Assembly: GCA_025361065.1 (NCBI GenBank)
Contig: JANYAY010000053.1
Location: 1 to 34,549 of the forward strand
DNA from: Deltaproteobacteria bacterium
Lineage (GTDB): Bacteria > Desulfobacterota > Syntrophia > Syntrophales > Smithellaceae
DNA: 34,549 nucleotides
Direction: 5' to 3'
The position numbers and the translations under genes were made by a program. Shown piece after piece: positions 27,359-31,478 of this stretch. Numbering within the stretch: position 1 is the stretch's first letter; every line of letters begins with the position of its first letter. The notes below the pieces were generated by a model. It saw only the letters and a program-made list of their open reading frames with translations, was not told the origin of the DNA and ran no database searches.

Positions 27359-27916
27359 ATGCCTGATAATGTAATAATCCGCTGTCTGAACTGCGGCACT
27401 AAAAATCGCATACCCTATCAGAAATTTCAGAAACGGCCGACATGCGGCAATTGCCATGCGCCTCTGGATGATTTGATTATCCGTTGCCTCAAATGCGGCA
27501 CTAAAAACAGAATGTCGGAAGAAAAACTCCATCAAAAACCACTGTGCGGCAAATGCCATGAACCGCTGGTTATTGCCCAGCAACAAACAAAGCCTGTCGA
27601 AGTAACCGATGATTCTTTTGCCCGGGAAGTGCTGGCTGCCGATACTTCCGTATTAGTTGATTGCTGGGCGCCCTGGTGCGCTCCTTGCCGCAAACTCTCA
27701 CCCATTATCGAAGAACTGGCCTCCGATTATGCCAATGGGGTAAAAGTGGCCAAACTCAATGTTGATGAAAATCCGGTTACAGCTTCGCAATATGGAATTC
27801 GCAGCATCCCGACAATGCTGCTTTTTAAGGATGGCAAGTTAGTGCATAGGCTTGTCGGTGCTCTGCCTAAAGAAGAAATTGAAAAGAATTTATTGTCAAT
27901 TATCAAAACTAATTGA
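27359..27916 (+). CDS. Thioredoxin with two N-terminal zinc ribbons
   Basis: A 185-residue protein. Two near-identical zinc ribbons open it: C9, C12, C29, C32 and C43, C46, C63, C66, each starting IIRCL-CGTKNR. The thioredoxin domain (about residues 78-185) has WCAPC at C107/C110, the cis-Pro in RSIPTMLLF, and normal length. Thioredoxin 2 (TrxC) of enterics has one such ribbon; two are unusual. It should reduce protein disulfides in the cytoplasm, with the ribbons as possible oxidant- or zinc-sensing parts. AGGTGA lies just before the ATG at 27359. The Nudix gene begins 8 bases after its stop. Confidence 0.92.
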   Translation: MPDNVIIRCLNCGTKNRIPYQKFQKRPTCGNCHAPLDDLIIRCLKCGTKNRMSEEKLHQKPLCGKCHEPLVIAQQQTKPVEVTDDSFAREVLAADTSVLVDCWAPWCAPCRKLSPIIEELASDYANGVKVAKLNVDENPVTASQYGIRSIPTMLLFKDGKLVHRLVGALPKEEIEKNLLSIIKTN

Positions 27917-27923
27917 AGCGAAT

Positions 27924-28478
27924 ATGTCCTCCATGAAACAAAAAAAACAAAATTTAATGTATCACTGTAAAATATTTGATGTCTGGGAAGAAGACGTTTC
28001 TTTACCCGACGGCAAAACGACCAAACAAAACATGATTGATCATAAACCTACCGTTGCCATTGTTGCCGTAAATGATAAACAGGAAATACTTTTAATAAAG
28101 CAATACCGCAATGCCGTAAAAAAACATCTCCTGGAAATTCCCGCAGGAACCATCGACAGAGAATCAGAAACAGCGCTGCTTTGCGCAAAACGCGAACTTG
28201 CCGAAGAAACGGGTTTTGCAGCGAAAACATTTATCGAGTTATTTGAAGGCTATTTATTGCCGGGATATTGCAACGAATACATGTACTTTTTCCTTGCCCA
28301 AAGCCTTTTTCCGAACCCCCTTCGTCCTGATGATGATGAATTTATTGAAGTTGTACCGACAAGCTTTTCCCAGGCAAAAAACATGGTAAGGGACGGTAGA
28401 ATAATCGATGCCAAAACTGCCCTCGGTATTATTCTGGCCGATACTTATGTGAAGGGGGAAACTTTATTTGAAAAGTAA
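27924..28478 (+). CDS. Nudix hydrolase, ADP-ribose pyrophosphatase type
   Basis: A 184-residue protein with the Nudix motif at IPAGTIDRESETALLCAKRELAEETG, containing the REL-EE-G core. The spacing between the first Gly and Glu is six residues, one more than the usual G-x5-E. PAG before the motif and a conserved EGYLLPGYCNEYMYFFLA after it fit the ADP-ribose diphosphatase (NudF) group, which cleaves ADP-ribose to AMP and ribose-5-phosphate. The start MSSMKQKK at 27924 is chosen over the longer open frame because it follows the thioredoxin stop at once. Its 3' end overlaps the HD-GYP gene tail to tail by 15 bases. Confidence 0.85.
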   Translation: MSSMKQKKQNLMYHCKIFDVWEEDVSLPDGKTTKQNMIDHKPTVAIVAVNDKQEILLIKQYRNAVKKHLLEIPAGTIDRESETALLCAKRELAEETGFAAKTFIELFEGYLLPGYCNEYMYFFLAQSLFPNPLRPDDDEFIEVVPTSFSQAKNMVRDGRIIDAKTALGIILADTYVKGETLFEK

Positions 28479-29429
28479 AACGAATTTCTCAAAGACTTCC
28501 TTGTGAAAGTGATCCAGCATTTCATCCCTCATAAGCTTCAGAGCTTCAAAAGGATTAAGCCTTTTTTTATAAGGCCTTTCGGAAACAAGCGCATCAAAAA
28601 CATCAGCCACCGAACATATTCGGCCATAAATGTGTATATCTTCGCCGCGCATTTTTCGGGGGTATCCGGTACCGTCATGCCGTTCATGATGCTGTAATAC
28701 AATCAAACGGCATTCGTCATTGATTTGTTTTGTTTCCGTCAAAAGCTTAAAACCCATGCTCGGATGCCTGCGCATCAGAGTCATTTCATCTTCGGTGAGC
28801 TTACCCGGCTTATTGATAATGGCTTCATCGATATATACTTTACCGACATCATGCAAAAAGAAACCGGCCCCCAGAGCATGCATGTCATGTTTATCCTCCT
28901 TGGCAAGAATTGCTTTTGCCAGAGATACTCCATAAACACCCACATTAACCGAATGAATGTAAGTATTATAGTCGTGGGAAGTGAGTTTCAGTAAATGATC
29001 GCTGGTGGCATCGTCGGCAAGAATCAAATCTACAACATCAACAATACCCTTCTTAAATTGCGCAATATTTTCTCCGGAAGGATTTTCCCATAGCTTGCCA
29101 ATCATGTTGATAGAATGTAAATGAACAGCCTGCGCTTTCGGTTCCGGCGCCATTTTCTTATCCTGGATAACTTCCTTTAATTTCTCCGGTACAATATTTT
29201 CTGAAAAGTCCTTTTCCGGTTGTTCTTCCCGTGTAAACATTACCGGAGCCGTAATGCCTTTTTTTTCATTAATATTGACTTCTAAAATGCCATATTCGAT
29301 AATTTTATCTATTTGTTTTTGAGAAGTAATCGTAAAGTTGTTTCTTAAAAAAGGATGAGCACGCCATGCTTTAGGTAATTCTATGTACATGCCGGTTTTT
29401 AATTCAGTTACTTTAATTCTTTTTATCAT
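28464..29429 (-). CDS. HD-GYP cyclic-dinucleotide phosphodiesterase
   Basis: A 321-residue protein. Residues 1-130 are a DUF3391-like N-terminal domain (IKVTELKTGMYIELP). The HD-GYP domain has H193-D194 in LHDVGKVYIDEAIINKPGKLT and HHERHDGTGYP at 247-257 (GYP at 255-257), and the downstream D276 in SVADVFDALVSERPYKK. All metal ligands look intact, so it should be an active phosphodiesterase opening c-di-GMP or related cyclic dinucleotides. Soluble, cytoplasmic. It follows a lipoprotein and a membrane GGDEF protein on the same strand (43 and 101-base gaps), so the three probably act together. See the finding on the GGDEF partner. Confidence 0.9.
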   Translation of the reverse strand: MIKRIKVTELKTGMYIELPKAWRAHPFLRNNFTITSQKQIDKIIEYGILEVNINEKKGITAPVMFTREEQPEKDFSENIVPEKLKEVIQDKKMAPEPKAQAVHLHSINMIGKLWENPSGENIAQFKKGIVDVVDLILADDATSDHLLKLTSHDYNTYIHSVNVGVYGVSLAKAILAKEDKHDMHALGAGFFLHDVGKVYIDEAIINKPGKLTEDEMTLMRRHPSMGFKLLTETKQINDECRLIVLQHHERHDGTGYPRKMRGEDIHIYGRICSVADVFDALVSERPYKKRLNPFEALKLMRDEMLDHFHKEVFEKFVLLFK

Positions 29430-29472
29430 TAACTAATTTTCCCTGGTATCAGTATTACAGGAGCCAATATTT

Positions 29473-29997
29473 TTACTTCAGCATTTTTTCTCTTTTGTCC
29501 ATCTGTATTTCCAATTGTTTTAAAAGTGCAATATCTTTTTTCAATTGCTCATTTTCCTGCTGGAGTTTAGCTGTTTCGGTTTGATATCTTTCTTCTGAAT
29601 ATTTATAATCTTTTTTCAGTTTTGCTTTTTCGGCATTGGCCTTTTCCAGCGCTATTGATTCGGTTTTAACTTTTTCCTGCAAATCGAGTAAATTATTAAT
29701 GGTCAGGATCAAGGCTTGAGCACTTTCGGCCCATTTGCTCTTGGGATGCCCCTGAAGAAAAATTGTCAGTTTAGCCTTGACCGCATTATAATCCGGTTCT
29801 CCCTGTCGATTATTCAAATAAGTCAATGCTTCACTGATAATATCCGCATCAGAAGGGAATAATTCAAAAACACTTTTTTGCCTTTCAGCAGCCATTTTCT
29901 GGCTATTTGATTTATCGATAACCGCTCTATTTGCACAGCCTGCAATAAAAAATGCTATTATAAAAAAAATGATTGTCCCTTGGCATTTTTTCAACAA
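29473..29997 (-). CDS. Coiled-coil lipoprotein
   Basis: A 174-residue lipoprotein: MLKKCQGTIIFFIIAFFIAGCANRAV, with the lipobox IAGC. Residues 40-100 look like a small TPR-like region with ALTYLNNRQGEPDYNAVKAKLTIFLQGHPKSKWAESAQALI, and residues 105-174 form a strong coiled coil (LEKANAEKAKLKKDYKYSEERYQTETAKLQQENEQLKKDI). Asn follows the cysteine, so outer-membrane sorting is possible. It lies between the GGDEF and HD-GYP genes on the same strand. In such modules envelope lipoproteins often link signalling to the cell surface. No family name is claimed. Confidence 0.8.
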   Translation of the reverse strand: MLKKCQGTIIFFIIAFFIAGCANRAVIDKSNSQKMAAERQKSVFELFPSDADIISEALTYLNNRQGEPDYNAVKAKLTIFLQGHPKSKWAESAQALILTINNLLDLQEKVKTESIALEKANAEKAKLKKDYKYSEERYQTETAKLQQENEQLKKDIALLKQLEIQMDKREKMLK

Positions 29998-30017
29998 TGA
30001 TCCATCTCCCCTTCACC

Positions 30018-30120
30018 TTAATCCCGCTGCTGCGGGACGAGCGTTAATTCTCCGCAGCTTGCTGCTATATGATAACGTTCATTTCATACCTCGACAGCTT
30101 ACTGCGAGGTGGTTGATTGC
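30018..30120 (-). repeat. Dispersed palindromic repeat, copy B (full length)
   Basis: About 103 bases with two hairpins: TCCCGC-TGCT-GCGGGA at 30022-30037, and ACCTCG.CAG-CTTA-CTG.CGAGGT at 30088-30110. The 27 bases at 30032-30058 match copy A at 8245-8271 in reverse orientation. The repeat fills the gap between the GGDEF and lipoprotein genes and encodes the last codons and the stop of the GGDEF gene. Confidence 0.7.
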
Positions 30121-31478
30121 TCAGCCGGATGTAAAATATTGTGTTTTTCCCAATCTTCCTGGGTCACATAATTGCTGCCGGGAAGCAATTTGGCATATTC
30201 TTTTAGTTCTGCGGCAGTCATAGCAATATCGAGCGGATTCTTAAATCTTGTTCCATCATCTGTAACTATGGCTACGGAAACTGTAATTAAAGGAAATTTT
30301 TGCATTGCTCCCTGACGGTCTTTTCCGGTTATATAACCTCTTTGTGCATCCTGAGCATCGTAAAACCGACCAATGCGTTTTTCAAAATCCGCTACCAGTT
30401 TTTGGCAAATTCTTTTCGCATGCTCCGGTCCTGCTATTACGACAAAGTCATCTCCGCCTATATGACCGATAAATATTTCTTCCTGCGGTTTTTTTGCCAC
30501 ATACTCTGTAAGGATATCGGCAACCTCTTTAATTACTTCGCTGCCCCAAGCATATCCGTATTTATCGGCAAACGGCTTAAAATTGTCAAGATCAACCTGA
30601 CAAAGAGAGAATAATTGGCCCGTGGCGAACATATCCATGATCCGCTTTTCAATGGCAATATTCCCCGGCAGACCGGTAAGGGGACTGGCATTTAAATTCA
30701 TTTCTTCAAGTATTTTAAGTCTTTGTGTCATATAAATAAAATCTTTCGCCAGCGCTCCAATTTCATCATTACGCCTTACGGTGATTTGATGGTTGAGTTT
30801 CCCTTCGGCAATTAAACCTGTTGCCTGCTGCAGTTGCCGCAGTGGCTTGGAAATATTGCGTCTAATCAAAAGAGCCAACGCAATTCCCAAAATCAGACTA
30901 AATAAACTCAAGCCCAAAGTCATGTTAGTCGCATTAGAACTTTGACTGGCAATAAAATTCATCTTATCGCTAATTGCTTTTTCCGTTCCCGTCTGGATAT
31001 TTTTTAGCTGTAATGCAATTTCTTCAACTGTTGCTTTGCTCGCAGAATCGGAAAGTGCCATGGCATCCTGCAGGCGATTGTCTTTTAACAAGGCAACTTC
31101 CTGAGAGAAAAAAGTTCCATAGCGATCATGGAGGAGGGCAAGATTATTTAAACCTTTATCACTGTCCCGGTATTTTCCGGTATTAAGTTTCTTTATCTTT
31201 TCCAGACCAGCTTGGAAATCGCCGGCGCGTTGCCAGAATATTTGTTCCAGAGAAGCATCTTTAAAAATAAAGTATTTCTTTTCGGTACTTTCCTGCGCCA
31301 GCAGCGCATCTCGCATGCTTTTAGTCGTTTCCACCACACTAAAATGACGATTCGTAATGTCATATGCCGCCTGATTAAGCTTCTGCAGATGAAATATGGC
31401 ATAAGCACTCACCAGCAATGTCAGCAGCGCCATAAACAGATAACCGAACAAAAGTTTGCTGCTTATGGTAAGTTTCAT
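30099..31478 (-). CDS. Membrane GGDEF protein, candidate cGAMP synthase (Hypr type)
   Basis: A 459-residue sensor: membrane helix at residues 8-30, periplasmic four-helix domain (about 35-183), second helix (186-206), HAMP (207-260) and GGDEF domain (265-425) with GGDDF at 341-345. Compared with PleD, the guanine-binding Asn335 is A304 and Asp344 is S313 (DNFKPFADKYGYAWGSE). Characterised hybrid promiscuous GGDEF enzymes (Geobacter GacA, Bdellovibrio Bd0367) carry Ser at the Asp344 position and make 3',3'-cGAMP. The RxxD inhibitory site is absent. The GGDEF Glu is Asp. The C terminus runs into a dispersed repeat. It lies upstream of a lipoprotein and HD-GYP gene. Activity is inferred from these residues only. 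Confidence 0.88.
   Translation of the reverse strand: MKLTISSKLLFGYLFMALLTLLVSAYAIFHLQKLNQAAYDITNRHFSVVETTKSMRDALLAQESTEKKYFIFKDASLEQIFWQRAGDFQAGLEKIKKLNTGKYRDSDKGLNNLALLHDRYGTFFSQEVALLKDNRLQDAMALSDSASKATVEEIALQLKNIQTGTEKAISDKMNFIASQSSNATNMTLGLSLFSLILGIALALLIRRNISKPLRQLQQATGLIAEGKLNHQITVRRNDEIGALAKDFIYMTQRLKILEEMNLNASPLTGLPGNIAIEKRIMDMFATGQLFSLCQVDLDNFKPFADKYGYAWGSEVIKEVADILTEYVAKKPQEEIFIGHIGGDDFVVIAGPEHAKRICQKLVADFEKRIGRFYDAQDAQRGYITGKDRQGAMQKFPLITVSVAIVTDDGTRFKNPLDIAMTAAELKEYAKLLPGSNYVTQEDWEKHNILHPAEQSTTSQ

Follow-up and report, generated by a model that had tools for sequence, protein, structure and literature searches.

A GSU1937-type GGDDF cyclase and a candidate QseG-like lipoprotein partner in a Smithellaceae genome

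The stretch of DNA discussed here (the window) comprises the 34,549 nucleotides of contig JANYAY010000053.1, from a deltaproteobacterium of the family Smithellaceae (assembly GCA_025361065.1). It includes three open reading frames, arranged in one row on the minus strand and with exactly the boundaries given in an initial annotation, that encode a membrane cyclase, a lipoprotein and an HD-GYP protein. Judging from its relatives, the cyclase is likely to be capable of making 3',3'-cyclic GMP-AMP (cGAMP). On balance, the row probably specifies a cyclase of the type of GSU1937 from Geobacter sulfurreducens that is engaged by a QseG-like lipoprotein and makes cGAMP with some cyclic di-GMP (c-di-GMP), the product being hydrolysed by the HD-GYP protein. 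The cyclase family itself is known; three points are new, namely the proposed coupling of lipoprotein and sensor, a base pocket altered at both positions in this clade, and a genome in which no cGAMP riboswitch was found.

The mechanism proposed for this locus is that of a periplasm-sensing cyclic-dinucleotide cyclase. The QseG-like lipoprotein, encoded just downstream, would engage the QseE-like four-helix sensor from the outer membrane, and the sensor would signal through the HAMP domain so that two GGDDF domains dimerise. With serine in place of aspartate at the base-recognition site, the GGDDF domain would accept ATP as well as GTP, giving cGAMP and a smaller share of c-di-GMP, and the HD-GYP protein of the same gene row would then hydrolyse the dinucleotide.

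The cyclase as an orthologue of GSU1937

The cyclase gene (positions 30099-31478, minus strand, as are all features below) encodes 459 amino acids, comprising a transmembrane segment, a four-helix periplasmic sensor, a second transmembrane segment, a HAMP domain (residues 204-255) and a GGDDF domain (residues 266-445). Pfam recognises 4HB_MCP_1, HAMP and GGDEF (41.4 to 48.7 bits against a cut-off of 23.8), and the AlphaFold model is confident (mean predicted local distance difference test score, pLDDT, 88.8), its GGDEF portion matching solved diguanylate cyclases. GSU1937 has the same plan, a 4HB-HAMP-GGDDF protein with the Hypr serine and many homologues among the Deltaproteobacteria, as described in 2022 (PMC8835794). 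Its deletion weakens the signal of a cGAMP reporter, the loss being 25% with fumarate and 70% with Fe(III) citrate, and a GacA-GSU1937 fusion in an E. coli biosensor strain makes both cGAMP and c-di-GMP, while a GADDF mutant makes neither (PMC8835794).

The deletion primers published for GSU1937 (PMC8835794), together with Geobacterales relatives, served to place that gene. The exact G. sulfurreducens primer site was found in none of the genomes searched. With mismatches, the primers fit family members that we read as Geobacterales from their labels and riboswitch content, at the gene start, at the gene end and in the upstream neighbour: there were two to four mismatches in nadC, the upstream neighbour, and, in the relative L106, four at the N-terminus and six at the C-terminus. 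The C-terminal primer encodes STPGSNY, which is the C-terminal motif of the family. The window cyclase is 34% identical to L106 over 437 amino acids and shares its architecture, and a quick tree gathers the GSU1937-type family into a clade of 84 rows (Shimodaira-Hasegawa-like approximate likelihood ratio, SH-aLRT, 99), apart from paralogues that carry Asn335 and Asp344 (PleD numbering). Because of the primer matches, the full-length identity of about 35% and the membership of one well-supported clade, we take the window cyclase to be the GSU1937 orthologue. The cyclase was found in 72 of 149 genomes of the window's order (E <= 1e-53).

The initial annotation had proposed a cGAMP-making, Hypr-like sensor, with GacA and Bd0367 as its precedents. 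The proposal survives as the best reading of the cyclase, since GSU1937, a demonstrated producer of cGAMP, is in the orthologue group. GacA is not its best precedent, and the GGDDF motif departs from the GacA type. GacA and Bd0367 were ruled out as closest relatives, because the family falls in with GSU1937 and the LTxLPGN-GGDDF proteins.

The base-recognition pocket

The DLDNFKPFADKYGYAWGSEVI motif of the cyclase aligns to DgcZ/GcbC-type GGDEF domains without gaps, which places Ala304 (codon at 30567-30569) at PleD Asn335, the sugar-face contact of the base, and Ser313 (30540-30542) at PleD Asp344 and GacA Ser348, the Watson-Crick-face contact. This bears out the residue assignments made at the outset, as well as the GGDDF motif (residues 341-345; 30444-30458) and the lack of an RxxD I-site upstream of it. 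Among 39 near orthologues from the window's order, position 313 is serine in all and position 304 is alanine in 38, with glycine in the remaining one, so that neither state can be put down to chance or sequencing error. A wider family alignment of 47 sequences has serine or asparagine at position 313, never aspartate, and alanine, asparagine, serine or glycine at position 304. Paralogues with LTxLPGN and GGDDF, including L013 of the same genome, keep both Asn335 and Asp344. Thus it is the loss of Asp344 that marks the GSU1937-type family, and the state of position 335 does not; Ala304, once offered as a Hypr signature, has to be given up as such, for GacA keeps asparagine there and the family itself varies. 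Elsewhere in the phylum, orthologues from several families (L085-L087, L090-L092, L095, L096 and L099) have asparagine at the PleD Asp344 position and retain Asn335.

The remainder of the catalytic site is strictly conserved. D296, K301, GGDD, K426 and K430 are invariant across the 47 orthologues, which argues for a working active site. As for the features associated with Hypr GGDEF domains, serine or threonine at the Asp344 position is present in every near orthologue, and the sugar-face asparagine (GacA Asn339) is replaced by Ala304. Enzymes of the GacA type with Ser348 are said to have GGDE[F/Y] exclusively, and the combination of GGDDF with serine contradicts that rule; GSU1937 is an active GGDDF exception to it (PMC8835794).

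Not all of the evidence favors a cGAMP-making orthologue of GSU1937, and the following observations count against it. Besides the departure from the GGDE[F/Y] rule, Ala304 leaves the pocket without the second of the two contacts that GacA makes to the base, and the position of PleD Arg446, a phosphate contact, is serine in the window cyclase. Over their full length, the window cyclase and the Geobacterales members are just about 35% identical, and G. sulfurreducens itself lies outside the searched set, so that its gene was placed indirectly. In addition, unfused GSU1937 had no activity in E. coli (PMC8835794), and the window's genome yielded no cGAMP riboswitch (see below).

The lipoprotein and the QseE-like sensor

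The lipoprotein gene (29473-29997) has a TTG start and encodes 174 amino acids with a signal peptide, a lipobox cysteine at residue 21, a BamD/YbgF-like helical repeat and a long C-terminal helix; the protein has no match over the cut-off in Pfam or NCBIfam. A strict neighbour rule, which required a lipobox and a start codon close to where the cyclase gene stops, places a lipoprotein gene directly downstream of the cyclase gene at 65 of 85 loci; an overlap of 4 nt is common. These are counts of loci rather than genomes, since one genome is in some cases represented twice, and the misses include contig ends and cases that the rule does not cover. The lipoprotein had been suggested as an envelope partner of the sensor, and its persistence behind the cyclase across the phylum, together with the QseE-like nature of the sensor, carries that suggestion further. 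The GSU1937 paper of 2022 makes no mention of a lipoprotein (PMC8835794).

Within the window, the cyclase and lipoprotein genes are separated by a spacer of about 100 nt (29998-30098), and 43 nt lie between the lipoprotein and HD-GYP genes. The nearest relatives, L024 and L025, have a 7-nt gene overlap in place of the spacer. The spacer was also considered as a repeat and rejected, as there is just one copy of it within the window.

Sequence comparison shows the sensor to be homologous to that of QseE. The best match of a 47-sequence sensor profile among 177,635 PDB sequences is the histidine kinase 9m08_C (columns 5-256, E 1.6e-11), which we take to be the QseE chain of the QseG-QseE complex, going by the neighbouring entries 9M06 and 9M07 named in PMC12691602. 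Comparison by hhalign gives the sensor family a probability of 96.7% with E. coli GlrK/QseE over the whole sensor, versus 11% with NarX. That said, the profile also reaches 91% with Tsr, in a match that covers HAMP and the latter half of the sensor; general HAMP similarity thus contributes to the score with QseE.

In the enterobacterial complex, mutation of QseG Leu209 or Arg219 abolishes binding; Leu209 packs on Val77-Leu78 of QseE, and Arg219 bonds Glu69 (PMC12691602). The most conserved residues of the window lipoprotein family lie in a C-terminal motif, Leu159...Arg169 (29491-29523), with the spacing of QseG Leu209...Arg219; leucine occupies the first position in 43 of 43 sequences and arginine or lysine the second in 40 of 43. 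On the sensor side, Ile71-Phe72 (31263-31268) aligns with Val77-Leu78 (I/V/L and L/F/M, respectively, in 47 of 47), and Glu63 (31290-31292) aligns with Glu69 (E in 44 of 47). Chief among the evidence for control by the lipoprotein is this double match, on lipoprotein and sensor. We infer an outer-membrane, QseG-like activator that probably switches the cyclase on from outside the cell.

An alternative, unlikely yet by no means far-fetched, is that the lipoprotein is merely co-transcribed, for instance as a BamD/CpoB-like envelope factor, and makes no contact with the sensor. The N-terminal half of the protein does resemble BamD and YbgF/CpoB rather than QseG, hhalign leaves the lipoprotein and QseG families unjoined (18%), and 4 to 9% of shuffled sequences match the C-terminal motif equally well. 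On the sensor, QseE Arg70 corresponds to Ser64 of the window protein, with arginine in 12 of 47 family members, which likewise speaks against contact of the QseG kind; Arg73 corresponds to Lys67, with arginine again in 12 of 47. Simple co-transcription would have to be squared with a downstream position and overlapping genes that are conserved across the phylum, and with the fact that the top-conserved C-terminal residues are those that match the QseG contacts and have their counterparts on the sensor. Homology of the lipoprotein to QseG was not shown by hhalign, by the PDB profile search or by Foldseek; the protein appears QseG-like in place, shape and contact residues.

The product, its reader and its removal

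The HD-GYP gene (28464-29429) encodes 321 amino acids with DUF3391 and HD domains in Pfam, a candidate phosphodiesterase of the cyclase-lipoprotein gene row. All catalytic motifs are present: HD, HHExxDGxGYP (HHERHDGTGYP, residues 247-257; 28659-28691) and the metal-binding residues. Its best solved relatives are PmGH, the first PDB match, and V-cGAP3, the second. The order cyclase, lipoprotein, HD-GYP on one strand recurs in 7 of 21 sampled genomes (6 of 20 relatives plus the window), from at least two families of the order. The HD-GYP protein is a recurring, not an obligatory, part of the gene row. From its motifs it could destroy the signal of the cyclase; the earlier proposal that it removes cGAMP is weak, as the intact motifs would suit hydrolysis of cGAMP and of c-di-GMP alike and the gene follows in about a third of the sampled genomes. 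In two relatives a tandem HD-GYP pair follows the lipoprotein gene (L055:3607-5642 and L057:6388-8376), with copies 55-57% and 63-87% identical to the window copy.

No GEMM riboswitch had been noticed in the window, which fits the genome-wide search: in the genome, which is 97% complete, a single GEMM-I riboswitch exceeds the cut-off of RF01051, and it lies on another contig (L016:1501-1593; G000 contig C2:23246-23338), upstream of genes for a prepilin peptidase and a pseudopilin-like protein. At what we take, from the Vc2 structure, to be the ligand-contact position, this riboswitch has G, as in c-di-GMP riboswitches. In a control set of 20 mid-scoring Geobacterales riboswitches, 17 have A at that position together with the ACTAAACC...CGGAAAG signature that GEMM-Ib should show, and these 17 were used to build a GEMM-Ib covariance model. 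Neither RF01051 nor the Geobacterales-built model revealed a GEMM-Ib (cGAMP) riboswitch in the window's genome, so the expectation of such a receptor elsewhere in the genome is not supported. Among the 149 genomes of the order, the Geobacterales-built model found one strong match (96 bits; L251, G032 contig C49:13148-13224), in a genome where no full-length cyclase orthologue was found. In 46 of the 72 genomes with the cyclase, the GEMM-I search gave no match at E <= 1e-4.

Of the candidate products, cGAMP is the likelier, and c-di-GMP is its main rival. It is conceivable, though rather doubtful, that the enzyme functions in practice as a diguanylate cyclase, with a Ser313 that tolerates GTP, an HD-GYP protein that removes c-di-GMP, and c-di-GMP receptors of the genome that read it. 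Such a system would account for the c-di-GMP-like contact base of the one strong GEMM-I riboswitch and for the first place of PmGH, an enzyme that cleaves c-di-GMP, among solved relatives of the HD-GYP protein. It would also accord with the published D-to-S mutant of GSU3350, which is still a pure diguanylate cyclase, and with the GSU1937 fusion, which made as much c-di-GMP in E. coli as GacA (PMC8835794). It is less easily reconciled with the lower cGAMP caused by GSU1937 deletion in vivo (PMC8835794) or with the family-wide loss of Asp344 that paralogues keep, a sign that strict GTP recognition has been selected against. We retain cGAMP, accompanied by some c-di-GMP, as the inferred product in the window organism.

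It is improbable that the GGDDF domain of this clade is non-catalytic, a nucleotide- or dinucleotide-binding switch that signals through other contacts. GGDDF, Ala304, Ser313, the serine at PleD Arg446 and the missing I-site do all differ from working diguanylate cyclases, and the GGDDF protein PA3258 is inactive (PMC8835794), but the metal and phosphate residues D296, K301, D343, D344 and K430 do not vary across the phylum, and GSU1937, the orthologue, has an activity that is abolished in its GADDF mutant (PMC8835794).

Very improbable is a preference of the clade for ATP, with cyclic di-AMP (c-di-AMP) as the main product after loss of both guanine contacts (N335A and D344S): Ala335, where A or G is fixed in the clade, would remove the remaining sugar-face contact, and published Hypr enzymes make some c-di-AMP in vitro, but Geobacterales members with Ser335 occur in genomes rich in cGAMP riboswitches. 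Moreover, loss of the sugar-face asparagine need not favor ATP; this residue also contacts atoms common to both purines.

Adjoining genes

At 27359-27916 the window encodes a thioredoxin with two N-terminal zinc-ribbon repeats, adjoining a NUDIX hydrolase whose frame overlaps that of the thioredoxin.

Wider distribution and significance

Few bacteria are known to signal through cGAMP made by GGDEF enzymes, and riboswitches led to the discovery of this signalling. The family described here occurs in about half of the sampled genomes of the order and extends to other families of the phylum, in most cases in genomes that yielded no cGAMP riboswitch; cGAMP signalling could thus be wider than riboswitches suggest. 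A more general proposal, which we put forward tentatively and would not bet on, is that deep-rooted cyclases gated by outer-membrane lipoproteins and lacking Asp344 (and, in this clade, Asn335 also) make an adenine-containing dinucleotide that is read by a protein receptor, there being no cGAMP riboswitch. The QseG-like lipoprotein offers a testable answer to how GSU1937 is turned on and, if the answer is true, histidine kinases and dinucleotide cyclases have an envelope sensing device in common.

Comparison with known systems

GSU1937 is the closest parallel, with the same four-helix sensor, HAMP, LTxLPGN...GGDDF, serine at the Asp344 position and C-terminal PGSNY, and, in the Geobacterales relatives that were checked, a lipoprotein gene directly downstream. 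The window system differs in having Ala rather than Asn, Ser or Gly at position 335, an HD-GYP gene in the row and no GEMM-Ib riboswitch in the genome. GacA (GSU1658/Gmet_1914) and Bd0367 share the serine at the base-recognition position, whereas their motif is GGDEF and they possess an I-site; GacA, a receiver-domain protein, also retains Asn at 335. The window HD-GYP protein shares all HD-GYP motifs with PmGH and V-cGAP3 and differs from them in its N-terminal DUF3391.

In the YfiBNR system (the outer-membrane lipoprotein YfiB, YfiR and the diguanylate cyclase YfiN/DgcN), an envelope lipoprotein acts on a HAMP-GGDEF cyclase, as proposed here. DgcN is the best NCBIfam match of the window cyclase, far under its cut-off; the sensor differs, the window has no YfiR-like gene, and YfiB is OmpA-like.

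The enterobacterial QseE-QseG (GlrK-QseG) system differs in output, a histidine kinase in place of a GGDDF cyclase, and the window row has no QseF-type regulator gene; the N-terminal half of the window lipoprotein is unlike that of QseG, and QseE Arg70 is not conserved. What the two systems share is a sensor with HAMP, a lipoprotein encoded downstream, and contact residues on both sides of the predicted interface (PMC12691602, PMC6075780).

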